NCBI RefSeq assembly: GCF_001424755.1
Contig: NZ_LMRF01000001.1
Location: 1 to 64,000, forward strand
Direction of reading: 5' to 3'
DNA length: 64,000 nucleotides
Origin: Marmoricola sp. Leaf446
GTDB lineage: Bacteria; Actinomycetota; Actinomycetes; Propionibacteriales; Nocardioidaceae
How positions within the stretch are numbered: the first letter of the stretch is position 1; each line of letters opens with the position of its first letter. A model generated the notes under the pieces. It did no database searches, was not told the DNA's origin, and saw only the letters and a list, made by a program, of their open reading frames with translations. Below, piece by piece: positions 35,519-55,652 of this stretch. A program made the translations under genes and the position numbers.

Positions 35519-36250
35519 ATGTCACTCGTGCTCGTGACCGGGGCTTCCACGGGACTTGGGCTCGCGGCGACCACGGCTCTGCTCGACGCCGGTCACCAGG
35601 TCGTCATGCACGCTCGGCGTGCCGATCGCGTCGAGGACCAGTCCGTCCTCGACCGGGTCCACGCCGTCGTCACCGGGGACCTGGCTGACCCAGGGGTCAC
35701 GGTGGGCCTTGCCGAGCAGGTCAATGCGTTCGGCGCTCTCGATGCGGTTATCCACAATGCCGGCACGATGCGCGGGCCCGTCATCGAGACGAACCTCGTG
35801 GCGCCGTACCTGTTGACGGCCCGACTGCGCACCCCGGGACGTGCCGTGTTCCTCAGCAGCTCGCTGCACCGGGGTGGACGGACCGACCTCGAGGCGATGG
35901 CGGTGCTCGGTGGCCCTGACGGTCGCCAGTCCTACGAGGACAGCAAGCTGCTCGTGACCGCGCTGGCGATGGCCCTCGCTCGGTCCTCGCCCGCGACCCC
36001 GTCGCACGCGGTCGACCCCGGCTGGGTGCCGACGAGGATGGGCGGCAGGGGCGCTTCGGACGACCTCGCGCTCGGTCACGAGACCCAGGTCTGGCTCGCG
36101 ACGGCACCAGTCGGGACGGTGCAGCCGGCGACCGGCGGCTACTGGTACCACCGCCGGGCGCAGCAGCCGGACCCACGCGCGGAGGACGAGCGGTTCCAGC
36201 AGGAGCTGCTCGACCGCCTGCATGCTGCCACCGGCGTGGCGCTCAGCTGA
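35519..36250 (+). CDS. short-chain dehydrogenase/reductase
   Basis: 243 residues. Rossmann motif TGASTGLG (residues 7-14), NAG motif HNAGT, catalytic Tyr and Lys in YEDSK. Shorter than average, with C-terminal substrate loop different from the fatty-acid reductases. ATG with AGGAGG upstream. Its 3' end overlaps the convergent MmyB-type regulator by 8 bases. SDRs next to MmyB-like regulators are a common pairing in actinomycetes, where the regulator probably controls the SDR. Substrate unknown. Confidence 0.82.
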   Translation: MSLVLVTGASTGLGLAATTALLDAGHQVVMHARRADRVEDQSVLDRVHAVVTGDLADPGVTVGLAEQVNAFGALDAVIHNAGTMRGPVIETNLVAPYLLTARLRTPGRAVFLSSSLHRGGRTDLEAMAVLGGPDGRQSYEDSKLLVTALAMALARSSPATPSHAVDPGWVPTRMGGRGASDDLALGHETQVWLATAPVGTVQPATGGYWYHRRAQQPDPRAEDERFQQELLDRLHAATGVALS

Positions 36251-37097
36251 GCCCGAGGAGGCTGGCGCCGGCCAGGACCTCGTGGAGCCTCGCCGCAGTG
36301 GGGGAGTCGAACGGGGCGACGTAGGTCACCACCGTCAGGTCCGGTTCGGCCGATACCTGCAGAGCCTCCAGGTCGAGGGTGATGGGCCCTACCTCGGGGT
36401 GCAGGAAGGTCGTGCTCTCGGTCACGAGGCGGCGTACGTCGTGCGTCGACCACAGGCCGGCGAAGTCCGCGCTCGCGTCAGCCAGCCGCTCGACGAAGTC
36501 GTGCGTGCGACGGTCCGTCGGGTGTCGGACCAGCTCGGCGTGAAGGAGGGCGACCATCTCGCTTGCGGCCGCCGACCAGTCGGCGAAGAAGGTCCGGGCA
36601 CGCGGATCGGTGAAGCAGAAGCGGGCCAGGTTGGGCGTCGGGTCGTCGCAGTCGAACAGGGGCGGGTAGAGCCAGCGGGCCAGTGCGTTGTGCGCCAGGA
36701 TGTCCATCCGGCCGTTGCGGACGTAGGCGGGCGAGGTCGTCATCGTGTCGAGCAGCCGCTGCAGGCGTGGCCTCACCCCGGCCCGCTCCCGGGCCGGGGC
36801 GCCGGGGTCGAGCTCGCCCCGCGCAGCCCTGGCGAGGGACTGGAGGTGGGACCGCTCCGCATCGTCCAGATCGAGGGCGCGTGCGATGGCGTCCAGGACG
36901 GCGGCCGACGCCGTCTCGAGGTGCCCCTTCTCCAGACGGGTGTAGTAGTCGACGCTCACACCGGCGAGGTCGGCGACCTCCTCGCGCCGCAGCCCGGGGA
37001 CACGCCGACGACCACCGACCGTCACGCCGGTGCTCTCGGGATCCAGCTTCGCTCGACGGCTCTGCAGGAACTCCCTGGCCTCGGTCCGGGTGTCCAC
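36243..37097 (-). CDS. XRE-family regulator with MmyB-like ligand domain
   Basis: 284 residues. The N-terminal helix-turn-helix reads RVPGLRREEVADLAGVSVDYYTRLEKG (residues 32-58), the hallmark sequence of this group. The C-terminal PAS-like MmyB domain (DILAHNALARWLYPP, RARTFFADW) binds hydrophobic molecules in known relatives of mycelial antibiotic regulators. GTG start, with a -10 TATGCT exactly 6 nt upstream (37109-37104 on the minus strand), so the mRNA is probably leaderless. Converges on the SDR gene and is divergent from the catabolic cluster. Confidence 0.88.
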   Translation of the reverse strand: MDTRTEAREFLQSRRAKLDPESTGVTVGGRRRVPGLRREEVADLAGVSVDYYTRLEKGHLETASAAVLDAIARALDLDDAERSHLQSLARAARGELDPGAPARERAGVRPRLQRLLDTMTTSPAYVRNGRMDILAHNALARWLYPPLFDCDDPTPNLARFCFTDPRARTFFADWSAAASEMVALLHAELVRHPTDRRTHDFVERLADASADFAGLWSTHDVRRLVTESTTFLHPEVGPITLDLEALQVSAEPDLTVVTYVAPFDSPTAARLHEVLAGASLLGLS

Positions 37098-37109: not shown

Positions 37110-37150
37110 GGTGTCGGTGTGAGGGGGGTCACGCCCTGCCCTGGAAACGT

Positions 37151-37173
37151 TCTGACATTTGACCGATAGTCAA
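37151..37173. promoter_or_regulatory. candidate GntR operator and promoter of the first catabolic operon
   Basis: TTCTGACATTT resembles the reverse complement of the TGTCAGACA box (7 of 9). It is followed by TTGAC-CGATA-GTCAA, a 5+5+5 inverted repeat (37159-37173) that contains a possible -10 (GATAGT). It lies about 65 bases before the SDR gene. The match is weaker than at the two strong sites. Confidence 0.45.
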
Positions 37174-37240: not shown

Positions 37241-38005
37241 GTGGCCGGCCTCACCGACAAGTCCATCGTCATCACCGGTGCCGCGAGCGGCATGGGTGCA
37301 TCCACCGCCAAGCGTGTGCTGGAGGCCGGAGGGCGGGTGGTGGCGGCCGACCTCGACGAGGCCAAGCTCAAGGCGCTCGTCGAGGATCTCGGTGACCGCG
37401 ACCGCGTCGTGGCGGTGGTCACGGACGTGACGCAGAGCGACCAGGCCGAAGCCCTCGCCGATCGCGCCGTCGCCGAGTTCGGGGCGCCCTACGGCCTCGT
37501 GAACGCCGCGGGCATCACCTGCGTCGGGTCCCTCCTCGACGTGCCCGCCGACGCGTGGAGCCGCGTGCTGGCCGTGAACGTCGACGGCACCTTCAACGTC
37601 AGCCGCGCCGTCGTCCGCACGATGGTCGATGCGGGGGTGCGCGGGTCCGTCGTGAACTTCTCCTCGGGCGCCGGTATCCGCGGCGTGGCGAACCGCATCG
37701 GCTACGTCGCCTCCAAGTTCGCCGTCACCGGGATGACCTACACGATGGCCCTCGAGCTGGCCCCGCAGGGCATCCGTGTCAACGCTGTCGCGCCCGGGAT
37801 GATCCGGACCCCGCTGACGCAGTACATGTTCGACGACCCCGAGAACGCCGCCCGCATCGCGGCCTCGCACCCCATCGGCCGCGCGGGGGAGGCGCACGAG
37901 GTCGCCGACGCGGTGACGTTCCTGCTCTCGGAGCAGGCGAGCTTCGTCACGGGCGCGGTCCTCACCGTGGACGGTGGCAACACCATCGGCATCGGCAACT
38001 TCTAG
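37241..38005 (+). CDS. SDR family oxidoreductase
   Basis: 254 residues, classical SDR. TGAASGMG at residues 11-18 binds NAD(P), NAAG is in GLVNAAGITC, the catalytic Ser is in FSSGAG, and YVASK gives Tyr and Lys. NAD is more likely because the residue after strand 2 is acidic (AADLDEAK). GTG start after AAAGGGGAG. First gene of an SDR-lactonase-aldehyde dehydrogenase operon, overlapping the next by one base. Probably oxidises a secondary alcohol of the unknown substrate to a ketone or lactone. Confidence 0.88.
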   Translation: MAGLTDKSIVITGAASGMGASTAKRVLEAGGRVVAADLDEAKLKALVEDLGDRDRVVAVVTDVTQSDQAEALADRAVAEFGAPYGLVNAAGITCVGSLLDVPADAWSRVLAVNVDGTFNVSRAVVRTMVDAGVRGSVVNFSSGAGIRGVANRIGYVASKFAVTGMTYTMALELAPQGIRVNAVAPGMIRTPLTQYMFDDPENAARIAASHPIGRAGEAHEVADAVTFLLSEQASFVTGAVLTVDGGNTIGIGNF

Positions 38006-40414: not shown

Positions 40415-40426
40415 ATATGTCAGACT
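40415..40426. promoter_or_regulatory. candidate GntR operator before the ABC importer operon
   Basis: TATATGTCAGAC contains TGTCAGACT, one base from the TGTCAGACA box at 51209 and 52825. It lies in an unusually A/T-rich 55-base stretch, about 110 bases before the importer operon. The rest of the leader shows no structure I would call a riboswitch. Confidence 0.45.
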
Positions 40427-40532
40427 CTTGTCGGGTTGCAAAATGTATGGTCTCATTCCTGTGGTCGGCGTCACTTCTTGTCCAACGTGACAGCCGGCTC
40501 GTGACGACGGACTGAGGAAGAAGGGCCCGGAG

Positions 40533-41582
40533 ATGGCGATCCAGACCAGCACCCCCGACGAGGCTGTGACCACACGGCGCTGGTCGCGCAAGGTGGACCT
40601 GGGCTACCGCTGGCCGAGCCGCTTCCTCGTCGCCTGGTACGCCCTCATCGGTGCCCTGGTGATCGTCGGGATCTTCGAGCCGAGCACCTACTCGAGCGCC
40701 TCGCGCGAGCTCGTCACCGCGCTGGCGGCCTGCCTCCTCGTCGCGGCGCTGGGCCAGCTGCTCGTCGTCATGGTGGGCGCCATCGACCTCGCCGTTCCCG
40801 GCTACATGACGCTGGCGGCGGCGGTGAACGTGCACTACGTGGAGACCCGTGGTCCCGTCTTCGCGATGGTCGCGGCCGTCGTGCTGTGCGCCCTGCTGAG
40901 CGCGGTCAGCGGCGCTCTGGTGAGCGTGCTGCGGCTCAACGCCCTCATCGTCACGCTTGCGATGAACACGATGATCACCGGTGCGCTCATCATCTGGATG
41001 GGCCAGACCTTCTCCACCGGTGGCCGCGCGCCCCAGTGGCTGCAGACCATCGGCGGCCAGGACGTGGCGAGCATCAGCATGCTGTTCGTGATCGCCGTGG
41101 TGCTGGCGGCCGCCGTCAGCTTCGTGGTGCACCGCACCCGGGCCGGCCGACAGATCGCCGCCGTCGGGTCGAACCCCACCGCAGCCCGTCTCCTGGGCAT
41201 TCGGGTGCACGCCGTCGTGGTTCTGACCTTCCTGGGAGCCGGCGTGCTGTACGCATTGGCCGGGTCGCTCGCCGCAGGCTACGTGCAGACCCCGGACTCG
41301 ACGCTGGGCGTCACCTACCAGATCACCACCCTCACGGCGGTCGCGATCGCCGGCGCCATGTTCGGTGGCGGGCCTGCGAGCGTCTCCCCGCTGGTCGCCG
41401 GGTGCCTGCTCCTGCCGCTCATCGACCAGGCCCTCGCCCTGCACGACCTCAGCTCGGGTCTCAGGGTCGTCGTCCAGGGCGTGATCCTCGTCGCCGCCGT
41501 CGCGGCGGGCGCCCTGACCCAGATGGGCCGCTCCGGCCTCAAGCGCTTGGTGGGCTCGGGCTCCACCAGGGGAACGTCCTGA
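40533..41582 (+). CDS. sugar-type ABC importer permease (RbsC family)
   Basis: 349 residues with 8-10 membrane helices. IDLAVPGYMTLAAAV corresponds to the conserved DLSVG-like segment and GSNPTAARLLGIRV to the cytoplasmic EAA-like loop that contacts the ATPase. It belongs to the carbohydrate-uptake-2 group (ribose, AI-2, inositol, purines). ATG with GAGGAAGAAGGG upstream. First gene of an operon with a binding protein and a fused ATPase-permease, which supplies the second membrane subunit, so the transporter core is a permease heterodimer. Substrate unknown. Confidence 0.88.
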   Translation: MAIQTSTPDEAVTTRRWSRKVDLGYRWPSRFLVAWYALIGALVIVGIFEPSTYSSASRELVTALAACLLVAALGQLLVVMVGAIDLAVPGYMTLAAAVNVHYVETRGPVFAMVAAVVLCALLSAVSGALVSVLRLNALIVTLAMNTMITGALIIWMGQTFSTGGRAPQWLQTIGGQDVASISMLFVIAVVLAAAVSFVVHRTRAGRQIAAVGSNPTAARLLGIRVHAVVVLTFLGAGVLYALAGSLAAGYVQTPDSTLGVTYQITTLTAVAIAGAMFGGGPASVSPLVAGCLLLPLIDQALALHDLSSGLRVVVQGVILVAAVAAGALTQMGRSGLKRLVGSGSTRGTS

Positions 41583-41658
41583 ACCCGGGACCTCTCCGCA
41601 GCACCCCCACCACCCTCACAAGCACCGCTTTCATCAAGAACCCCACCGGAGGTACATC

Positions 41659-42963
41659 GTGACAACCGCTATGACTCGAAGCGCGCGGCTCAGGCGGCTC
41701 GCGCTCGCGGGCGTGAGCGTCCTGCTGGCCGCATCCGCAGCAGCCTGCGGCAGCTCCTCGGGTTCTTCGGGCGGAGGTGGTGAGGCCAGCGACTCCGAGA
41801 AGGCGGCATGGGCCGACACTGCCTACCCGGAGCCCGACGAGGCGAAGATGAAGGAGTACGCCACGCGGCTGATGAACCCCGACGTGGACGTCAACAAGCT
41901 CGCCCCGGAGATCCAGACGGCGCTGATGGTGGCGCACACGCCCCTCACGGACGCGCAGCAGAAGGTGTTCGACAAGTGCATGACGCAGGACACCTGTGAG
42001 ACCGGCACCGGCAAGTACTACCTCGCGATCGTCGACGACCAGGTGAACACCTACTACAGCGTGTCCCGCGCCGAGACCACGGCGTACGCCATCAAGACGG
42101 GTGCGATCGCCAAGATCTCCTACAACACGGTCAACATGAACGTGCAGCAGTACCTCTCCAACTTCCGCACCGCCATCGGTCAGAAGGCGGACCTCATCGT
42201 CAGCAACTTCGGCGGACTGGGCAACCAGGCCGGACAGGTGATCGCCCAGGCGAAGGCCGCAGGCATCCCGATGACCAACGGTGTGGCCACGCTGTCGGAG
42301 GACGTGATGTCCAAGCTCAGCGTCCAGTTCAGCGCCAACCTCTGCGACATGTGGGCCAACGGGGCCCAGTCCATCGCCGACAAGCTCGAGGAGGAGGGCA
42401 AGCCCCTCACCTACTCCCTGTTCACCGGGCCTGCGGGCAACGCCTACGCGGCGTTCTGGCAGCCGTGCGCCGAGAAGGCGCTCGACGAGGCCGGCATGAA
42501 GAAGGTCTACACCGGCAACACCGAGTGGACCCCGCAGGGCACCGTGAAGGCGGCCGCGGCGCTGCGAGCGTCCGGGAAGAAGCCGTCGCTGATCGCCTAC
42601 GACACGTTCCCCGAGAACTTCATGCAGGCCTACATCGACGCCGGTGACAAGGACATGCCGGCGTTCGCCCTCACCGGGGCCTCGGACATCGGAACGGCCA
42701 AGGCCTACAAGGACGCGCAGGACGCGGGCCTCGCCCCGATCGTGTTCGTCTCCCCGAACAACACGTGGCTGAGCTCGATCGAGCTGTCGATCAACCTGGC
42801 GATCAAGGACGGCAAGGGGCCCTCCTCGACCAAGATCGACTGGCCGGTCAACTTCAGCGACTTCGAGCAGTTCGTCCCGCAGTTCGACCTCACGCAGAAC
42901 AACTTCGCGTTCCTCGGCTCGCCGCTCTCCGCGGAAGAGCAGGCCGCGGCGCTCAAGCAGTAG
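41659..42963 (+). CDS. substrate-binding lipoprotein of the ABC importer
   Basis: 434 residues. Signal peptide with lipobox SAAAC (less usual Ala at -3), then a Gly/Ser tether, then a two-lobed periplasmic-binding-protein type 1 fold related to RbsB (DDQVNTYYSVSRAETT, LIVSNFGGLGNQAGQVIAQAKAAGIPM, FALTGASDIGTAKAYKDA). It is longer than RbsB (about 300), with an extra 70-residue N-terminal part including CMTQDTCETGTG. Captures the substrate outside the membrane. GTG start after CGGAGG. A strong hairpin follows the gene. Confidence 0.88.
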   Translation: MTTAMTRSARLRRLALAGVSVLLAASAAACGSSSGSSGGGGEASDSEKAAWADTAYPEPDEAKMKEYATRLMNPDVDVNKLAPEIQTALMVAHTPLTDAQQKVFDKCMTQDTCETGTGKYYLAIVDDQVNTYYSVSRAETTAYAIKTGAIAKISYNTVNMNVQQYLSNFRTAIGQKADLIVSNFGGLGNQAGQVIAQAKAAGIPMTNGVATLSEDVMSKLSVQFSANLCDMWANGAQSIADKLEEEGKPLTYSLFTGPAGNAYAAFWQPCAEKALDEAGMKKVYTGNTEWTPQGTVKAAAALRASGKKPSLIAYDTFPENFMQAYIDAGDKDMPAFALTGASDIGTAKAYKDAQDAGLAPIVFVSPNNTWLSSIELSINLAIKDGKGPSSTKIDWPVNFSDFEQFVPQFDLTQNNFAFLGSPLSAEEQAAALKQ

Positions 42964-42997
42964 CACCACCTCTCCCCGCACGTCACCGACAGGTTGG

Positions 42998-43039
42998 GTG
43001 CCGGTCGGCTCGATGCACGTCGCTCGAGCCGGCCGGCAC
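42998..43039 (+). promoter_or_regulatory. 16-bp hairpin between binding-protein and ATPase genes
   Basis: GTGCCGGTCGGCTCGA (42998-43013) pairs with TCGAGCCGGCCGGCAC (43024-43039), one G-T pair, loop of 10. It ends just before the ribosome binding site of the ATPase-permease gene. Such intercistronic stems after binding-protein genes stabilise the upstream mRNA and limit the downstream gene, giving the excess of binding protein typical of importers. Confidence 0.6.
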
Positions 43040-43053
43040 GCGGAAGGACCCTC

Positions 43054-45561
43054 ATGACCAGCTCCCAGACCGTGACCGAGCAGCTGCACCACCTCGCTCG
43101 GCCCGAGGGCGGCCTCCGGATCACCGGCGTCACCAAGACGTATCCCGGTGTCGTCGCCGTCAACGACGCCACCTTCGAGTGCCTCGCCGGGGAGGTGCAC
43201 GCCCTCGTCGGAGAGAACGGGTCCGGCAAGTCGACCATGATCAAGGTGGCCGCGGGGCTCGTGGCACAGGATTCGGGGCTCGTCCAGATCGGTGGCCAGA
43301 CCCTCACCAAGAGCGACCCCCGCCTGGCGCGTCGCCTCGGGCTGATGACGGCCTACCAGGACACCTCACTGGTCAACCAGCTCACGGTGGCCGACAACGT
43401 GGAGATGTCCTTCTACTGCCTGGGCGAACCGGCGCCCAAGAACCTCAAGCAGGTGCTGAAGGAGTTCGACCTGCCCTTCGGACCGAAGGACCTGCTGACC
43501 TCGCTCGGTCCCGGCGGACGTCAGATGCTCGAGGTCGTCCGCGCCATGATCCACCGGCCCCAGGTGCTGCTCGTGGACGAGCCGACGGCCGTGCTCGACC
43601 TCAACTCCGCCGACCAGCTCGAAGGCCTGATCTCCAACATCCGTGACGAAGGCTGCGCAGTCGTCTACGTCAGCCACCGGCTCGAGGAGGTACGTCGGCT
43701 CGCCGACCGCCTCACCGTCATCCGTGACGGTGTCATCCAGGGCACCCACGACCGCATGGACTGGGACGTCGAGACGATCGTCGAGCTCATGGTCGGCGCG
43801 CCCATCGACCTCGAGTTCCCCGGAAAGGTGCCCAGCACCGGCGCCGCCCCCGCTCCGCTGTTCGAGGTCGCAGGCCTGATGGGCACGGCGGTCGGCCCCA
43901 TCGACCTCCACGTGGGTGCTGGCGAGATCGTCGGCGTGGCCGGGGCCGAGGGCAACGGCCAGCGCCACCTGCTGCGCGCGATCATCGGTGTGGACCGCAA
44001 GGCCGGCTCGGTCACCCTGGAGGGCAAGCCGGTCGGTGGCGGGCCGGCCGGAGCGTTGAAGTCCGGCATCAGCTTCCAGAGCGGCGACCGGGTGGCAGAG
44101 TCCGTCTTCCCGAGCATGTCCATCGGCGCCAACGGCACCATGCAGCTGGGTCCTGCGCTCGGCCCGGCAGGCACGATCCAGACGAAGAAGCTGAAGGACA
44201 AGTTCGGTGCCGCCGTCCGCAAGCTCGGCATCGTCAGCGCCTCGGCCTACCAGCCCATCAGCGCGTTGTCGGGCGGCAACCAGCAGAAGGTGGTCCTGTC
44301 CCGCGCCTCGATGCGTCGACCCAAGCTGCTGGTGATCGACGAGCCGACCCAAGGCGTGGACGCCAAGGCACGGCTGGACATCTACCAGCTGGTCTCGGAG
44401 ACGGCGCAGAGCGGGGTCGGGGTCCTGGTCAACTCCTCGGACTCCTTCGAGCTCGCCGGGCTGTGCGACCGCGTCTACGTGATGTCGGAGGGGACGGTCA
44501 TCGACGAGGTGACCGGTTCGTTCACGGAGTCCGACATCGTCCGACGTTTCGTGAGCACGACGGGCAAGCGCGACGAGATCGTCGACGAGGGGGCGCGCAA
44601 GGCGCGCCGCCTGGCGACCACCCTCGCCTCCCCGCGTGTCCCGGTGGTCGTCCTCCTGCTCCTCATGCTTCTGCTGGGCGGCTACGCGGCCAGCCGCTCC
44701 CCGCTGTTCCTGCAGGGCTTCAACCTGAACAACCTGTTCCTCTCCGCACTGCCGCTGCTGTGGGTGGTGATCGGACAGCAGTTCGCGCTGCTCGTGGGCG
44801 AGCTCGACATCTCCATCGGCGCCTCCATGACGTTGTCCGTCGTCCTGGCCTCCTTCGTCCTCGCTGAAGCAGGGGTGGGATCGATAGCCCTCGGCGCGGC
44901 CATCATCCTCGGGGTCGCGCTCGTGGTCGGCTTGTTCAACGCGTTCGTGACCCAGATCCTCGGCGTGACGCCACTCGTGGCGACGATCGGGACGCTCGGG
45001 ATCGTGTCCGGCATCTGCGTCCTGCTGCGGCCCGAGCCCTCGGGAAGCATCGACGTCAACCTGGGCCTGGCGCTGTCGCAGGGCATCGCCTACGTGCCCA
45101 TCGGCTTCATCGTCGCCATCGCGGTCGCGGCGGCCATGGACTTCTGGCTGTTCCGCACCGGCGGTGGTCTGGCCACACGAGCAGTCGGGCTGGAGAGCAA
45201 GGCCAGCGAGCGCGTGGGGGTGCGCGTACGGACCATCAAGATGGCCGGCTACGTGCTGGCCGCGATCGGGGCCGCAATCGGAGGCGTGTTCCTCGCCGTC
45301 CAGGTCGGGGTGGGCAGCAACGACGTGGCGCTCTCGCTCGCGCTCCCGGCCTTCACCGCGTGCTTCCTGGGCGGTGCCAGCCTCACGGGTGGCAGGGGAA
45401 CCTTCATCGGGGCCGCGCTCGGTGCCTTGTTCCTGACCCTCATCGGCAACACCGCACAGCTGATCAACCTGTCGTACGCGTGGACGCAGGTCGTCTACGG
45501 ACTCATCCTGCTGATCGCGGTGACGGTCTACTCCGTCGCTGCACGCCGCGCCGTCGCCTGA
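43054..45561 (+). CDS. ABC importer ATPase-ATPase-permease fusion (RbsA-RbsC type)
   Basis: 835 residues, three modules normally encoded by two genes. ATPase domain 1 (about 25-260): Walker A GENGSGKST, Walker B LLVDEPTAVLD, weak signature LGPGGRQM. ATPase domain 2 (about 275-515): degenerate Walker A GAEGNGQRH, signature LSGGNQQKV, Walker B LVIDEPTQGVD. The last 300 residues are an RbsC-like permease (VVIGQQFALLVGELDISIGASMT, RAVGLESKASERVGVRV). ATG at 43054 after CGGAAGGA. Together with the separate permease and binding protein this completes one importer. The fusion is continuous, with no stop or frameshift. Confidence 0.9.
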   Translation: MTSSQTVTEQLHHLARPEGGLRITGVTKTYPGVVAVNDATFECLAGEVHALVGENGSGKSTMIKVAAGLVAQDSGLVQIGGQTLTKSDPRLARRLGLMTAYQDTSLVNQLTVADNVEMSFYCLGEPAPKNLKQVLKEFDLPFGPKDLLTSLGPGGRQMLEVVRAMIHRPQVLLVDEPTAVLDLNSADQLEGLISNIRDEGCAVVYVSHRLEEVRRLADRLTVIRDGVIQGTHDRMDWDVETIVELMVGAPIDLEFPGKVPSTGAAPAPLFEVAGLMGTAVGPIDLHVGAGEIVGVAGAEGNGQRHLLRAIIGVDRKAGSVTLEGKPVGGGPAGALKSGISFQSGDRVAESVFPSMSIGANGTMQLGPALGPAGTIQTKKLKDKFGAAVRKLGIVSASAYQPISALSGGNQQKVVLSRASMRRPKLLVIDEPTQGVDAKARLDIYQLVSETAQSGVGVLVNSSDSFELAGLCDRVYVMSEGTVIDEVTGSFTESDIVRRFVSTTGKRDEIVDEGARKARRLATTLASPRVPVVVLLLLMLLLGGYAASRSPLFLQGFNLNNLFLSALPLLWVVIGQQFALLVGELDISIGASMTLSVVLASFVLAEAGVGSIALGAAIILGVALVVGLFNAFVTQILGVTPLVATIGTLGIVSGICVLLRPEPSGSIDVNLGLALSQGIAYVPIGFIVAIAVAAAMDFWLFRTGGGLATRAVGLESKASERVGVRVRTIKMAGYVLAAIGAAIGGVFLAVQVGVGSNDVALSLALPAFTACFLGGASLTGGRGTFIGAALGALFLTLIGNTAQLINLSYAWTQVVYGLILLIAVTVYSVAARRAVA

Positions 45562-49463: not shown

Positions 49464-50192
49464 CTACCTCGAGTGCGAGTAGCGCAGCACGAAGTCGAGG
49501 TGCTCCCGCATCGCCTCACCGGCGGCATCGGGGTCGCTGTCCTCGATGGCGGCCAGGATGGCGATGTGCTGGCGCACCGTCTTCTGGGCGACCGGCTTGG
49601 TCACCTCGAGGAACTGGGCCGGGTGGGTGGCGCCGTGGACGGCGGCGATGAAGGCCTCGAGGAGCCGGTTGCCCGACGCCCGTCCGATGGTGGTGTGGAA
49701 GCGGAGGTCGTACGTCGGGATCTCGGGATCGTCCAGCGTCGTGCTCTTCTGCGTCTCCACGACCGACCGCATCACCTCGATGTCCTCGTCGGTGCGGTTG
49801 CGCGCCGCCCACTGTGCAGCAGGGATCTCCAGCACACGCCGCACCTCGGTGATCTCGTCGATGGTGAGCGCCCCGATGCGCACGATCGTGTCCATGGACT
49901 CGCTGAGCATCTGGCTCAGCGAGTCGGGCGTGACGGTGTTGACGAAGCTGCCGCCCGCGACGCCGGGGATCTTGCGGATCAGGCCCGAGCTGACCAGCGC
50001 ACCGAGCGCCTCGCGGACCGTCGGTCGGCTGACACCGAACTGGGCGGCGAGCTCGGTCTCGGCGGGGAGCTTGTCGCCCTGCGCGAAGTGGCCGTCGAGG
50101 ATGGCCTCGCGCAGCTGCGACTCCACCTGGTCTCGAGGCCGCGTGACCTGACGGGCTTGGAAGCGCTTGTCCTCGGTGCCGGTGGTGGCCAT
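49464..50192 (-). CDS. GntR-family regulator (FCD/FadR subgroup)
   Basis: 242 residues. Winged helix at about residues 15-75: QLREAILDGHFAQGDKLPAETELAAQFGVSRPTVREALGALVSSGLI. The C-terminal FCD domain has the metal-ligand pattern typical of organic-acid sensors (EVRRVLEIPAAQWAA, DLRFHTTIGRASGN, RQHIAILAAIEDSD, with the His/Asp set). ATG at 50192, preceded by GAGGAGAC. A TTGTCCTACA box lies over its -10 region and closely similar boxes lie in the cluster promoters, so it is the likely repressor of the locus, released by a carboxylate intermediate. Confidence 0.92.
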   Translation of the reverse strand: MATTGTEDKRFQARQVTRPRDQVESQLREAILDGHFAQGDKLPAETELAAQFGVSRPTVREALGALVSSGLIRKIPGVAGGSFVNTVTPDSLSQMLSESMDTIVRIGALTIDEITEVRRVLEIPAAQWAARNRTDEDIEVMRSVVETQKSTTLDDPEIPTYDLRFHTTIGRASGNRLLEAFIAAVHGATHPAQFLEVTKPVAQKTVRQHIAILAAIEDSDPDAAGEAMREHLDFVLRYSHSR

Positions 50193-50268: not shown

Positions 50269-50278
50269 TTGTCCTACA
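50269..50278. promoter_or_regulatory. candidate autoregulatory box of gntR
   Basis: TTGTCCTACA fits the TnGTnnnACnA consensus of FCD-type GntR operators and overlaps a possible -10 (CAATAT on the minus strand) of the gntR gene. A TGACA follows after two bases. It also lies in the 5' region of the divergent lyase gene. Confidence 0.5.
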
Positions 50279-50356
50279 GATGACACGATGGTGTGAGCCG
50301 CCCCGACGGCGAGAGCGGCGGTGTCCGGTGCTCGCCGGTCGACCCAGGACAGCGTC

Positions 50357-51196
50357 GTGAGTGCCGACGAGCCGCGCGCGGCGATCGAGACCGCACGCAG
50401 CTTCTTGTTCGTGCCGGGCAACCGGCCCGACCGCTTCGCCAAGGCGGAATCGGCCGGTCCGGATCTCGTCATCCTCGACCTCGAGGACGCCGTCGCCCCG
50501 GCGGAGAAGGAACGCGCGCTGCACGAGGTCGTCCCGTGGGCCGCGGCCCACGGTCGCTGCATGGTGCGGGTGAACGGGCTCTCGACCCCCTGGGGCCGTT
50601 CCGAGCTGGAAGCGTTGCGCGGCGCAGGCGTCCCGATCATGCTGCCGAAGTCCGATCGCGTGGCTGACCTGCTCGAAGCCGCGGAGCTGTCCGGCGGCGC
50701 GCCGCTCCTTGCGCTCGTCGAGACACCGCGCGGTGTCCAGGCCGCGTCCGCTCTGGCTGACAGTGGCATGGTGGCGCGACTGGCCCTCGGCAACGTGGAC
50801 CTCGCGGCCTCGCTCGGGGTGGACCCTGCGTCGCGGGCCGCCCTCGCAGCCGCGCGCAGCGCGTTGGTCGCGGCCAGCGCCGCGGCCTCGCTGCCGGGTC
50901 CGGTCGACGGCGTCACCACGGCGCTCGACGACCCAGACCGGCTCGTCGACGACCTCGACCACGCCAAGGAGATGGGCCTCACCGGGCGGCTGTGCATCCA
51001 CCCGCGCCAGGTCGGGCCCACCAACACGGCGATGAGTCCGTCGCCCGCGGAGCTGGCCTGGGCGCAGGGCGTGCTGGACGCCGAAGGGGGTGGCGGGGTG
51101 GTGGTCCTGGACGGGGCGATGCTCGACGCCCCCGTGTTCGACCGCGCGCGACGTCTCGTCGCGCGGTCGCGAGCATCGCGCATCGACAACATTTGA
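50357..51196 (+). CDS. HpcH/HpaI aldolase family, CitE-like lyase
   Basis: 279 residues. The TIM-barrel begins RSFLFVPGNRPDRFAKA; LVILDLEDAV holds the Mg-binding residues, LVETPRGV the catalytic glutamate, LALGNVDLAASLG a metal ligand and CIHPRQV the conserved final strand. This is the citrate-lyase-beta/malyl-CoA-lyase-like group, which cleaves 3-hydroxyacyl-CoA into an acyl-CoA and an oxo acid. GTG at 50357 is preferred; a GTG 12 codons earlier lacks a ribosome binding site. Its end overlaps the -35 of the next promoter. Confidence 0.85.
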   Translation: MSADEPRAAIETARSFLFVPGNRPDRFAKAESAGPDLVILDLEDAVAPAEKERALHEVVPWAAAHGRCMVRVNGLSTPWGRSELEALRGAGVPIMLPKSDRVADLLEAAELSGGAPLLALVETPRGVQAASALADSGMVARLALGNVDLAASLGVDPASRAALAAARSALVAASAAASLPGPVDGVTTALDDPDRLVDDLDHAKEMGLTGRLCIHPRQVGPTNTAMSPSPAELAWAQGVLDAEGGGGVVVLDGAMLDAPVFDRARRLVARSRASRIDNI

Positions 51197-51221
51197 CTAA
51201 CGCGTAGTTGTCAGACATATT
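51193..51221 (+). promoter_or_regulatory. promoter with GntR box upstream of the second aldehyde dehydrogenase
   Basis: -35 TTGACT (51193-51198), 17-base spacer, -10 CATATT (51216-51221). The palindrome TGTCAGACA (51209-51217) overlaps the end of the spacer and the -10 box, the classical place for a repressor. The block TAGTTGTCAGACATATTAC recurs exactly at 52821-52839. Confidence 0.72.
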
Positions 51222-51340
51222 ACAAGGAACCGGCGCGTCAGCGCAGCCCGGGTGTCCCAGGTCCGGCACGGCAGGCCGTGCATCGGCAGCAGCGGGAGGG
51301 CGAGCTCGACGCCGAGCCCGACCGACCTGGAGGAACACCT

Positions 51341-52789
51341 GTGGAGCACTTCGGAGAGCTGTACATCGACGGGCGCTGGATCGCCCCCTCGGGCGACACC
51401 CGGACCCTGATCGACCCGACCACCGAGGACCCGTGGGCCACCGTGACCGCTGGAGGCGGCGAGCAGGAGGTCGATCTGGCCGTGGCTGCGGCCACCCGCG
51501 CCTTCGCGACGTTCTCCCGGACGACGGTCGCGGAACGTGTCGAGCTCATCGACCGGATCATCGAGGCCTACGAGCGCCGTGAGGACCAGCTCTCGCAGCT
51601 CATCGCCCGGGAGGTGGGCGTGCCCGTGTCCTTCAAGGCGCAGGTCACGGGCCCTGCTGGACACATGAAGGTCGCTCGCGACCTGGTCAGCAGCTACGCG
51701 TTCGAGCACCAGATCGCCGACACGGTCGTCCGGCGCGAGCCGATCGGGGTGTGCGCCCTGATCTCACCGTGGAACTGGCCCATCCAGACCTCCGTCATCA
51801 AGGTCATCTACGGGATCGCGGCCGGCTGCACCATGGTGCTCAAGCCCTCGGACGCCTCGCCCGCCTCGGGCGTCGCCCTGGCCGAGATCATGCACGAGGC
51901 CGGCACGCCGGCGGGCGTGTTCAACCTGGTGATCGGTCCGGGACGCGTGGTGGGCGAGGCCCTCTCGCGCCACCCCGACGTAGCCATGGTCTCGTTCACC
52001 GGGTCCACCGGCGCCGGAGCCCGCGTCGGTGAGGCCGCGGCGCAGACCGTCAAGCGCACGTGTCTCGAGCTCGGCGGCAAGTCGGCCAACGTCGTGCTCA
52101 CCGACGGAAACCTCGAGAAGGCTGCCCGCTGGAACGTCTCGAGGGCGTTCTCCAACTCCGGTCAGTCCTGCCACGCTCCCAGCCGACTCCTGGTCCACCG
52201 TGACCAGGTCGACGGGCTGGTCCCGTTCCTGGTCGACGAGATCGACCGCATGTCGATCGGTGACCCGCGTGACCCGGCGACGACGCACGGACCTCTCGTT
52301 CACGCCCAGCAGTACGACAGCGTGCAGCGGCACATCGGCATCGGCCTCGACGAGGGTGGCCGGCTCGTCACGGGAGGGCTGGGGCGGGTCGAGGGTCTCG
52401 ACCGGGGCTACTTCTGCAAGCCCACGGTGATCGCCGGCGTGACGCGCGAGATGACCCTGGCTCAGGAGGAGATCTTCGGGCCCGTCATCGTCGTGATGCC
52501 CTACGACTCCGAGGAGGAGGCGCTGGAGATCGCGAACGACTCCGTGTTCGGGCTCGGTGGTTACGTGTTCAGCGAGGACCGCAAGCGCGGGTACGACTTC
52601 GCCTGCGGCATCCGAGCCGGTCGCGTCGCCTTCAACGGGGCCGCCGTCAACTCCCATGCGCCCATGGGCGGCTACAAGCAGTCCGGGGTGGGTCGGTCGA
52701 TGGGTGTCTTCGGGCTCGAGGAGTACCTCGAGGTCAAGTCGGTCTTCGGTTTCGAGGACGAGTCGCACGACCTGCCCACCTTTTCGTGA
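51341..52789 (+). CDS. aldehyde dehydrogenase
   Basis: 482 residues. Catalytic Cys277 in SGQSCHAPSR, general base Glu in LELGGKSAN, and the SPWNWPIQT and FTGSTGAG nucleotide-binding loops. A betaine/semialdehyde dehydrogenase-like member acting with NAD(P). GTG at 51341 after CTGGAGGAAC, about 115 bases downstream of its own promoter. Monocistronic or followed at a distance by the next operon, which has its own promoter. Distinct in sequence from the ALDH at 38824. Confidence 0.9.
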   Translation: MEHFGELYIDGRWIAPSGDTRTLIDPTTEDPWATVTAGGGEQEVDLAVAAATRAFATFSRTTVAERVELIDRIIEAYERREDQLSQLIAREVGVPVSFKAQVTGPAGHMKVARDLVSSYAFEHQIADTVVRREPIGVCALISPWNWPIQTSVIKVIYGIAAGCTMVLKPSDASPASGVALAEIMHEAGTPAGVFNLVIGPGRVVGEALSRHPDVAMVSFTGSTGAGARVGEAAAQTVKRTCLELGGKSANVVLTDGNLEKAARWNVSRAFSNSGQSCHAPSRLLVHRDQVDGLVPFLVDEIDRMSIGDPRDPATTHGPLVHAQQYDSVQRHIGIGLDEGGRLVTGGLGRVEGLDRGYFCKPTVIAGVTREMTLAQEEIFGPVIVVMPYDSEEEALEIANDSVFGLGGYVFSEDRKRGYDFACGIRAGRVAFNGAAVNSHAPMGGYKQSGVGRSMGVFGLEEYLEVKSVFGFEDESHDLPTFS

Positions 52790-52808
52790 CCGAGCCCGAC
52801 AGCAGTAC

Positions 52809-52837
52809 TTGACTGTCGGTTAGTTGTCAGACATATT
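52809..52837 (+). promoter_or_regulatory. promoter with GntR box, leaderless, of the CoA operon
   Basis: -35 TTGACT (52809-52814), 17-base spacer, -10 CATATT (52832-52837). TGTCAGACA (52825-52833) overlaps both. The ATG of the SDR gene is 6 nt after the -10, so the transcript starts at the ATG. No ribosome binding site is present. Confidence 0.72.
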
Positions 52838-52843
52838 ACCTAC

Positions 52844-53587
52844 ATGTCTAATCGCGTGGCCGTCGTCACAGGTGCCGGTAAGGGGCTGGGTGAGGCCATC
52901 GCCCGCGAGATCGCCGCCTCCCAGGTGAGCGTCGTGCTCGCCGGCAGGGCTCTCGAGCCGCTCGAGCGGACGCGAGAACGGATCGTCTCGGCCGGAGGGA
53001 CGGCGATCGTCAAGCGCACCGACGTGACCGACGCCCAGTCGGTGGCCGAGCTGTTCGACACCGCCGAGGCGGAGTTCGGTCGTCTCGACGTCCTGGTCAA
53101 CAACGCCGGCGTCACCGCGCACGTCAACCTGGACGACCTCGACGAGTCCGAGTTCGACCGGATCTTCGCCACCAACGTCCGAGGCATGTTCCTCTGCAGC
53201 CGCGAGGCGGGCCGGAGGTTCGCCGCCGCAGGCTCGGGTCGTGCCATCAACGTGGCCTCCGTCTTCGGCTTGCTGGGACGTCCCGGGTTCTCGGCGTACT
53301 GCGCCTCCAAGGGAGCGGTCGTGAACTTCACCCGCTCGGTGGCCGCGGAGTGGGCAAAGTTCGGCGCGCAGATGAACGCCGTGGCGCCCGGCTACTTCGC
53401 GACCGACATCAACGCCGAGCTGCGCGAGGACGACGCCGCCATGGCGAAGGTCCTGCGCCGCATCCCGGCATACCGGATGGGGACTCCGGACGAGCTGGCC
53501 AACATCGTGGCCTACCTCGCCCTGCAGGCCCCTGACTTCCTCACCGGACAGACGATCGCCGTCGATGGCGGCGAGTCGAGCGTCTGA
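52844..53587 (+). CDS. SDR family oxidoreductase
   Basis: 247 residues. TGAGKGLG, NNAG in VNNAGVTAH, VASVFG near the catalytic Ser and YCASK. NADP is suggested by the basic residue after strand 2 (AGRALEPLERT). It looks like a 3-oxoacyl reductase-like member. ATG at 52844 is fixed by the leaderless promoter and by the frame. First gene of the ten-gene CoA operon ending with pntB. Confidence 0.88.
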   Translation: MSNRVAVVTGAGKGLGEAIAREIAASQVSVVLAGRALEPLERTRERIVSAGGTAIVKRTDVTDAQSVAELFDTAEAEFGRLDVLVNNAGVTAHVNLDDLDESEFDRIFATNVRGMFLCSREAGRRFAAAGSGRAINVASVFGLLGRPGFSAYCASKGAVVNFTRSVAAEWAKFGAQMNAVAPGYFATDINAELREDDAAMAKVLRRIPAYRMGTPDELANIVAYLALQAPDFLTGQTIAVDGGESSV

Positions 53588-53607: not shown

Positions 53608-54822
53608 GTGGTGGAAGCAGTCATCTGCGAGCCGGTGAGGACCCCGGTCGGACGCTACGGCGGGATGTTCAAGGACGTGCCCGTCACGGCGCTCGCCTCG
53701 ACGGTCGTCAAGGGCCTCGTCGAGCGCACCGGCATCACCTCCGGTGACATCGACGACGTCATCTTCGGCCAGGGTTACCCCAACGGGGAGGCAGCCGCCC
53801 TGGGGCGGATCGCCGCACTCGATGCGGGGCTCGACATCGACGTGCCGGGGCTGCAGATCGATCGCCGTTGTGGATCGGGCCTCCAGTCGGTGCTGTACGC
53901 CTGCATGCAGGTGGCCACGGGCGGCTCCGAGCTGGTGCTCGCGGGCGGTGCGGAGAGCATGAGCCAGGCGGAGTACTACGTCCCCGACATGCGCTGGAAC
54001 AACGGCGGAGCTCCTCAGCTCCACGACCGGCTCGCCCGCCCACGACACAACTCAGGCGGTCACCGCTTCCCTGTCGAGGGCGGCATGATCGAGACCGCGG
54101 AGAACGTCGGGCGCGAGTACTCCATCAGTCGGCTCGAGCAGGACGAGTGGGCCGTGCGCTCCCACGCGCGCGCCGTGGCAGCGATGGACGGTGGGCTCTT
54201 CGACGACGAGACCGTCCCGGTCGTCGTGCCCCAGCGCAAGGGGGACGCGCTCACCATCACCCGGGACGAGCACCCCCGTCCGGGCACCACCGTCGAGAGC
54301 CTCGGCCGGTTGCGGCCGATGATGTCCCGGACACGGCCCGACGCCACGGTCACGGCCGGGAACTCCTCCGGCCAGAACGACGCGGCTGCCGTCGCCATCG
54401 TGACCACGCCCGAGAAGGCGGAGGCGCTGGGCCTGCGTCCGCTCGCGAGGCTCGTGACCTGGTCGCTCGCCGGCGTCGAGCCGAGGCTGATGGGTATCGG
54501 TCCGGTCCCGGCCGCGCAGCGTGCGCTCAAGAACGCCGGCCTCTCCTGGTCCGACATCGACCTCATCGAGCTCAACGAGGCCTTCGCGGCCCAGGTGCTG
54601 GGCTGCTTCCGGGGCTGGGGGCTGGCCGAGGCCGACCTCGAGCGGGTCAACGTCAACGGTTCGGGCATCTCGCTGGGGCACCCCATCGGCGCCACCGGCG
54701 GCCGGATCCTGGCCAACCTGCTGCGTGAGATGGACCGTCGGGAGTCGCGCTTCGGCATGGAGACCATGTGCATGGGCGGCGGACAGGGCCTCGCGGCCAT
54801 CTTCGAGCGGATCGCCCGATGA
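53608..54822 (+). CDS. thiolase (acetyl-CoA C-acyltransferase)
   Basis: 404 residues. Nucleophile Cys88 in RRCGSGLQS, His in NVNGSGISLGHPIGATG and the second Cys in MCMGGGQG complete the thiolase active site. EPVRTPVGRYGG is the usual N-terminus. It can cleave a 3-oxoacyl-CoA or condense two acetyl-CoA; degradation is likely here. GTG at 53608 after AAAGGAGA. Overlaps the next gene by ATGA. Confidence 0.92.
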   Translation: MVEAVICEPVRTPVGRYGGMFKDVPVTALASTVVKGLVERTGITSGDIDDVIFGQGYPNGEAAALGRIAALDAGLDIDVPGLQIDRRCGSGLQSVLYACMQVATGGSELVLAGGAESMSQAEYYVPDMRWNNGGAPQLHDRLARPRHNSGGHRFPVEGGMIETAENVGREYSISRLEQDEWAVRSHARAVAAMDGGLFDDETVPVVVPQRKGDALTITRDEHPRPGTTVESLGRLRPMMSRTRPDATVTAGNSSGQNDAAAVAIVTTPEKAEALGLRPLARLVTWSLAGVEPRLMGIGPVPAAQRALKNAGLSWSDIDLIELNEAFAAQVLGCFRGWGLAEADLERVNVNGSGISLGHPIGATGGRILANLLREMDRRESRFGMETMCMGGGQGLAAIFERIAR

Positions 54823-55652
54823 CCCGCATCCTCTACCTCAGCATGTCGCGCGAGGAGTACTCGCCCAACTACTTCCCCTTCCTGCGCTCCTACCTCGATC
54901 AGATCAGGTCGCCGGACACCGAGGTCGACCTGCGCGGCACCCGCGTTGGTCGCATCGACAGCTTCCGGTTCTTCGAGACCCTCGACTGGATCTCCATCCT
55001 CGACTCGGTCATCGAGGCCGAGCTCGACGGCTACGACGCCGTGGCGATCGGCAACATCCTCGATCCCGCCCTTCGTGAGGCCCGCTCCATGGTGGACATC
55101 CCGGTCCTCGGGCTGGGCGAGACCTCCATGCTGACGTCGTGCCTGATGGGCAGCTCGTTCTCGCTCGTCGGGGTCAACCCCTACTTCGGCGGTCGGTTCG
55201 AGGAGAACGTGGCCAAGTACGGCCTGCGGGAGCGGCTCGCCAGCATCGAGTGCATGGGGCTCACCCCACACGAGCTGGACGCCTGCTTCTCCGACCCGGA
55301 GCAGCGGGGGAAGGCCATCGCGTCCTTCGAAGAGGCTGCCCGCGCATCGCTCGACAAGGGCGCGGAGGTCGTGATCCCCGCGGGCGGGAGGCTGACCGCC
55401 TTCCTCAACGCCAACGGCATCCGTGAGGTGGACGGGGCGCCCCTGCTGGACGGGACCGTCTCGCTGATCACCGCCACCGAGTCGGCGGTCCGCATCAGGC
55501 AACAGAGCGGCACCTTCGTGAGCAGACGACGTCTCTACGCGCGCGCGCCGCAGGCCTCGATCGAGGCCGCTGGTGCGGAGTACGCCGAGCGCTACCAGCT
55601 GCCCGCGCTCGGCCGCCTCGCTGCGCGCACCGACACCGAGGAGAAGGCATGA
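54819..55652 (+). CDS. Asp/Glu/hydantoin racemase-fold protein lacking both catalytic cysteines
   Basis: 277 residues. Fold match: DYDAV-like strands (ELDGYDAVAIGNILDPALREARSMVDIPVLGLGETSM) are those of the hydantoin-racemase group, but where the first catalytic Cys should be (ACF/GDP) the protein has GNILDP, and where the second should be (GCAG) it has PAGGRLT. A racemase or isomerase using two cysteines is therefore ruled out. ATG in the upstream stop fixes the start. Conserved place in the operon suggests another function on a carboxylate or CoA-bound intermediate. Function unknown. Confidence 0.78.
   Translation: MTRILYLSMSREEYSPNYFPFLRSYLDQIRSPDTEVDLRGTRVGRIDSFRFFETLDWISILDSVIEAELDGYDAVAIGNILDPALREARSMVDIPVLGLGETSMLTSCLMGSSFSLVGVNPYFGGRFEENVAKYGLRERLASIECMGLTPHELDACFSDPEQRGKAIASFEEAARASLDKGAEVVIPAGGRLTAFLNANGIREVDGAPLLDGTVSLITATESAVRIRQQSGTFVSRRRLYARAPQASIEAAGAEYAERYQLPALGRLAARTDTEEKA

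Follow-up and report, generated by a model that had tools for sequence, protein, structure and literature searches.

AnsR of Corynebacterium glutamicum, a GntR-family regulator of the FadR subfamily, represses the asparagine operon through the site ACCTGTCTGACAGCT, which was confirmed by mutation and matches the full FadR-subfamily consensus TNGTNNNACNA only in part (PMC9145765). In the same organism, GntR1 and GntR2 are two functionally redundant FCD regulators that share one operator set, with proven sites carrying one or two mismatches to TNGTNNNACNA (PMC2230225). LhgR, a GntR-family regulator of Pseudomonas, leaves footprints over TTGTCTGACAA and TAGTCTGACAA (PMC8206213). A published specificity rule further states that Arg at position 28 of the helix-turn-helix (HTH) prefers G and avoids A/T, with G/C at site position 6/14 (PMC4494728).

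The 64,000-nucleotide stretch of Marmoricola sp. Leaf446 DNA analysed here (the window) contains the first part of a 46-kb gene cluster (36-82 kb). Judged from the sequence, the palindrome TGTC(A/T)GACA, together with its AT-rich flanks, is very probably the operator of an FCD-type GntR regulator that represses this cluster by occluding the -10 element and also regulates its own gene. The genes concerned are the following.

36243-37097, minus strand: XRE/MmyB-like (MLTR) regulator, beside a short-chain dehydrogenase (SDR) gene
40533..45561, plus strand: ABC transporter operon encoding a permease, a solute-binding protein and an ATPase-permease fusion (Pfam BPD_transp_2, Peripla_BP_4 and ABC_tran; the Peripla_BP_4 match, at 34.9 bits, is just under the cutoff of 35.1)
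49467..50192, minus strand: gntR1, GntR regulator with FCD domain, 242 aa from ATG (Pfam GntR E=1.3e-20, FCD E=4e-27)
50321..51196, plus strand: HpcH/HpaI aldolase or CitE-like lyase, divergent from gntR1 (Pfam HpcH_HpaI E=1.1e-30)
51341..52789, plus strand: aldehyde dehydrogenase (ALDH; Pfam Aldedh E=2.6e-145), with a GTG start after GGAGG predicted from this ribosome-binding site
52844..53587, plus strand: short-chain dehydrogenase, first gene of the SDR-thiolase operon (Pfam adh_short_C2 E=4.6e-57)
53608..54822, plus strand: acetyl-CoA C-acetyltransferase (thiolase; NCBIfam NF004853, 667.5 bits, cutoff 551)
54819..55652, plus strand: Asp/Glu racemase-superfamily protein (Pfam Asp_Glu_race E=1.8e-19), 82-89% identical in four related clusters
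65748-66440 (G000:C1), plus strand: gntR2, FCD-GntR paralog 66% identical to GntR1, 1.7 kb beyond the window end

Further enzymes of the cluster include an acyl-CoA ligase, acyl-CoA and 3-hydroxyacyl-CoA dehydrogenases, and CoA-transferases, and this enzyme set fits a carboxylate or acyl-CoA as the signal. Only generic thiolase and dehydrogenase models passed the equivalog-level search. Assigning the pathway substrate through mesaconyl-CoA isomerase-like, RipC-like and HIBADH-like families was rejected, all of them scoring below equivalog cutoffs, and the abstracts of the isolation notes for the Pedococcus and Tsukamurella relatives give no substrate.

The most conspicuous repeat is the 19-mer TAGTTGTCAGACATATTAC, which a search of the window located in exactly two copies (51205-51223 and 52821-52839); allowing up to three mismatches brought up no third copy there, and shuffles expect 0. 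Both copies fall into a promoter-like layout. Operator scores are given in bits from a matrix trained on candidate sites in related clusters of Pedococcus, Kribbella, Modestobacter and Tsukamurella, the cluster studied here being left out; its training set was a visual selection from matches with one mismatch, in DNA that is AT-rich and for the most part intergenic.

51193..51198, plus strand: TTGACT, -35 of the ALDH promoter, read from the sequence (TTGACTAACG kept in Pedococcus)
51209..51217, plus strand: TGTCAGACA, predicted ALDH operator (21.4 bits), kept in Pedococcus and also found before the Tsukamurella ortholog
51216..51221, plus strand: CATATT, -10 of the ALDH promoter, read from the sequence after a 17-base spacer
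52809..52814, plus strand: TTGACT, -35 of the SDR-thiolase promoter, read from the sequence (TTGAC[TA] across 5/5 genera)
52825..52833, plus strand: TGTCAGACA, predicted SDR-thiolase operator (21.4 bits), 10 bases from the ATG in 5/5 genera
52832..52837, plus strand: CATATT, -10 of the SDR-thiolase promoter, read from sequence and conservation

TTGACT and CATATT are separated by 17 bases at both promoters (51193/51216 and 52809/52832), and TGTCAGACA, at 51209 and 52825, runs from the spacer end into CATATT, overlapping its first two bases. The original prediction had described the same 19-base block at 51205 and 52821, the same spacing, and a palindrome overlapping spacer and -10, and it was accurate on each count. 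Since the -10 of the SDR-thiolase promoter ends 6 bases before the ATG at 52844, which leaves no space for a ribosome-binding site after the expected transcript start, the message is probably leaderless, beginning at or next to that ATG.

These boxes had also been likened to the known FCD-type site TnGTnnnACnA. The palindromic GT-N3-AC core is indeed there, as TGTCWGACA in the promoters of ALDH, SDR and the ABC operon and as the variant TGTAGGACA at gntR1, but the full match fails: TTGTCAGACAT, at 51208 and 52824, ends in T and thereby differs from TNGTNNNACNA at one base, the last. A full match to TNGTNNNACNA is nevertheless a soft criterion, because the C. glutamicum GntR1/GntR2 sites deviate from it as well and the AnsR site fits it only partly.

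Three weaker boxes, proposed at 40418, 50269 and 37150, were likewise found in place, and all are among the matrix sites given below.

37149..37157, plus strand: GTTCTGACA, weak candidate operator upstream of the SDR gene at 37241 (14.6 bits), first noted as TTCTGACAT at 37150
40418..40426, plus strand: TGTCAGACT, predicted operator upstream of the ABC operon (19.5 bits; TATATGTCAGACTCTTG kept in Pedococcus)
50270..50278, minus strand: TGTAGGACA (top strand TGTCCTACA), presumed autoregulatory site in the gntR1 promoter (15.1 bits), first noted as TTGTCCTACA at 50269

The box in the gntR1 promoter lies between gntR1 and the CitE-like gene and represents a variant, TGTAGGACAAT, that is identical in Pedococcus and Kribbella; across the same promoter, ATCTGTAGGACAATA is identical in Pedococcus and TATTGTAGGACAATT in Kribbella. 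The box at 37150 is the weakest claim of this set, because its counterpart in Pedococcus, the nearest relative, scores only 10.8 bits and is thus not well conserved. An inverted repeat of the form TGTC-N6-GACA, TGTCCAACGTGACA, was seen at 40475-40495, some 60 bases past the predicted ABC operator. Separately, a matrix match of 17.2 bits, AAACCTCTGACATTT, lies outside the cluster at G000:C1:95632, just after another MLTR-like gene, and may be chance.

The product of gntR1 combines an N-terminal GntR-type winged HTH (PF00392, 73.2 bits, cutoff 27) with a C-terminal FCD ligand-binding domain (PF07729, 95.5 bits, cutoff 24.3), which bears out its earlier classification as an FCD-type GntR protein. 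None of the specific NCBIfam regulator models was reached, including the LldR equivalog (116.3 bits, cutoff 311) and the NanR subfamily model (136.1 bits, cutoff 260). Metal-binding FCD domains typically carry the residues D-x3-H, H and H, and the alignment shows all of them kept in GntR1, GntR2 and their close orthologs. The second gene, gntR2, appears to form an operon with its neighbours, an acyl-CoA dehydrogenase-like gene before it and a CoA-transferase gene after it, and this operon starts behind tandem boxes at 64627 and 64647, which are 20 bases, or about two helical turns, apart.

From the sites, their clustering, their conservation together with the GntR gene, the layout of the promoters and the known use of this core by other GntR proteins, we infer binding, repression, autoregulation and a releasing ligand as follows. 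GntR1, and probably GntR2 as well, would bind as a dimer to the 9-base palindrome before the ABC transporter operon, ALDH, the SDR-thiolase operon and gntR1 itself. Beyond the window the dimer would occupy the divergently transcribed promoters of the 3-hydroxyacyl-CoA dehydrogenase and acyl-CoA dehydrogenase-gntR2 units, and those of an SDR and acyl-CoA dehydrogenase pair. RNA polymerase would be blocked at 51209 and 52825, where the dimer would lie over the last bases of the spacer and the beginning of the -10. Induction of the cluster would come with release of the dimer by a pathway intermediate, which is probably a carboxylate or acyl-CoA bound in the FCD domain. A GntR protein is the likely binder because the same core is an established operator of AnsR (PMC9145765) and of LhgR (PMC8206213).

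Which GntR protein acts does not follow from the sites alone, because the two paralogs have the same recognition helix. This helix, VSRPTVREAL, is identical in GntR1, GntR2 and the Pedococcus, Kribbella, Modestobacter and Tsukamurella copies, and the alignment shows the whole HTH to be identical or nearly so across orthologs and paralog. The expectation of one repressor for the complete cluster therefore stands in part: a promoter box is shared by the regulator gene and several transcription units, but with a paralog of 66% identity "one" does not follow from the sites, and genes without a box speak against "complete". Upstream of ALDH 38824, Zn-ADH, the transhydrogenase and acyl-CoA dehydrogenase 68430 no box was found, so these would be controlled by read-through or not at all.

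As a refinement of the preferred reading, GntR1 and GntR2 could share the operator and answer to different ligands, forming a two-signal switch, which we consider possible but somewhat unlikely. The degree of identity between the paralogs and their common helix are consistent with it, as are the paralog pairs also present in Pedococcus and Kribbella (the Modestobacter and Tsukamurella sequence analysed shows one copy each) and the tree, which groups GntR2 of this genome with its Pedococcus counterpart with support. The redundancy of C. glutamicum GntR1 and GntR2 makes simple redundancy equally possible, however (PMC2230225). The second Kribbella copy has no supported placement in the tree, and dating of the duplication was dropped on that account. 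Somewhat unlikely, too, is the wider proposal that the locus is a sporadic catabolic island whose two FCD-GntR paralogs, with the same specificity and different ligands, read two metabolites through shared boxes, the tandem boxes before the gntR2 operon giving cooperative cross-control. The cluster is rare: of 395 genomes drawn from the class, this one alone has a close copy of either gntR1 or the racemase-like gene. Plasmid relatives were set aside, since they amount to proteins of only 44-45% identity in two Streptomyces.

Conservation in other genera supports repression through the palindrome by a GntR protein. Orthologs of GntR1 in Pedococcus, Kribbella, Modestobacter and Tsukamurella are 78-90% identical, and in 5/5 genera the SDR-thiolase promoter reads TTGAC[TA], 10 or 11 bases, [TA]GTCAGACA, exactly 10 bases, ATG. 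A box precedes SDR52 in all five genera, ALDH51 in the three that have their own ALDH51 promoter (this genome, Pedococcus and Tsukamurella), the ABC operon in 3/3 (this genome, Pedococcus and Kribbella), 3HCDH in 3/3 (this genome, Pedococcus and Modestobacter), and SDR75 or its operon in 3/3 (this genome, Pedococcus and Kribbella). It is also present in the gntR1 promoter of 4/5 genera, although the co-occurrence of box and GntR arises partly by construction, because the related clusters were fetched via GntR. Matrix matches, for example TAATGTCGGACATTA and AAATGTCAGACGATA, were also observed near distant FCD-GntR genes with 39-47% identity (L158 G040, L159 G090, L157 G026 and L162 G059). The sequences suggest that the core of the box may be common to a wider GntR clade.

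The same comparison bears on the XRE/MmyB-like (MLTR) protein, which could be the true owner of the operator if the GntR link were one of proximity. Each of the four related clusters does have a relative of this protein close by (48-61% identity), and the 37149 box lies between the MLTR gene of this genome and SDR 37241. Against this, identity in three genera is only 48-49% for the MLTR relatives, compared with 78-82% for GntR1, yet the box does not differ by a single base; the other MLTR promoters have no comparable box (best scores -4.5 to 9.2 bits, and 10.8 in Pedococcus); the gntR1 promoter carries the box in four genera; and the core is that of a proven operator of FadR-subfamily GntR proteins. 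We consider this reading improbable, and the XRE/MmyB-like regulator was rejected as the binder, its own promoters in Kribbella, Modestobacter and Tsukamurella being without the box.

Bare counts of the 9-mer are no evidence by themselves. With one mismatch allowed, it occurs 9 times in the window against 10.6 expected, which is no enrichment, and its 6 exact copies in the 3.81-Mb genome, with about 8 expected from a composition estimate, correspond to random density. The original prediction had named random density as grounds against the box, and this is true of the bare 9-mer but not of the clustered, AT-flanked and matrix-scored sites, which concentrate in the cluster. What goes beyond chance is the clustering of the boxes and their sequence context. 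Half of the exact genomic copies (3/6) lie inside 13.4 kb (scan P about 7e-4), the third of them at 64627, 0.6 kb beyond the window end. All four genomic copies of the AT-flanked pattern WNNTGTCAGACWNNW (starts 40415, 51206, 52822 and 64644) and all three of WWNNGTCWGACNNWW (40415, 64644 and 75851) are in the cluster, but both patterns were devised post hoc, after the sites had been seen, and the matrix test therefore carries more weight. Across five genomes, 14 of the 28 copies of the strict pattern fall inside the clusters, against 0.23 expected, with Modestobacter adding none.

Scanned with the matrix, the 46-kb cluster yielded 11 sites scoring over 13 bits (37149, 40418, 50270, 51209, 52825, 62442, 64627, 64647, 75854, 75935 and 77171), against 0 in a 400-kb background from this genome, where no site exceeded even 12 bits; site 62442, inside a coding region, is probably chance. 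This background took the place of unrelated GntR loci, which were dropped as a control because many come from AT-rich genomes and, scored against a 71% GC background, give counts that are not comparable. Matrices with a scrambled core found a mean of 0.6 cluster sites, and 1 of about 300 reached 11, since a scrambled core can approach the true one. That the repeats arise by chance or simply reflect common promoter sequence, with TTGACT and CATATT conserved and the palindrome incidental, is thus highly improbable: the random density of the bare 9-mer and the general likeness of promoters within one genome would suit it, but the palindrome is present where the -35/-10 layout differs (64627/64647, 75854 and 40418), the 400-kb background, which holds many promoters, has no site above 12 bits, and the scrambled matrices give a mean of 0.6.

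With repression by an FCD-GntR protein as the preferred reading, a motif read by eye becomes a testable regulon comprising a regulator, an operator and six conserved promoter classes, within a sporadically distributed cluster of at least five actinobacterial genera, and the regulator's ligand would point to the substrate of the cluster. The regulon is ordinary though neat and its type of control well known; what it adds is the second paralogous regulator with tandem sites beyond the window.

Like AnsR, this system would pair a FadR-subfamily GntR protein with an actinobacterial catabolic operon and the same palindrome, which in AnsR is read on the other strand as the core TGTCTGACA. The AnsR site, in contrast, lies downstream of the transcript start and acts as a roadblock, with one operon, one regulator and asparagine as ligand, whereas here the box covers spacer and -10 and there are many promoters and two paralogs. 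LhgR, which we take to be a FadR-subfamily member, is not actinobacterial and controls a small operon, not a large cluster with many promoters. Its footprints share the core found here, and it binds its own and a catabolic promoter and has a carboxylate ligand (PMC8206213). C. glutamicum GntR1 and GntR2 resemble the present pair in being paralogous FCD-GntR proteins with sites near TNGTNNNACNA; they differ in governing a gluconate regulon, in the prophage location of gntR2 and in targets that do not form one cluster. The locus offers a case for how two paralogs may share one operator.

An ungapped alignment to the FadR sequence presumably places Thr at HTH position 28 of GntR1. The box has T/A, not G/C, at site position 6/14, and the two together agree with the published Arg-G rule (PMC4494728). 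E. coli FadR shares the GT-N3-AC palindrome, the GntR-FCD architecture and the equivalents of Arg45 and Arg49 with the system described here (PMC4494728). The differences are Thr at the equivalent of Arg35, in place of a base-reading Arg, and a site with TTGT in place of TGGT, and they make this a clean case for the specificity rules of the FadR subfamily.
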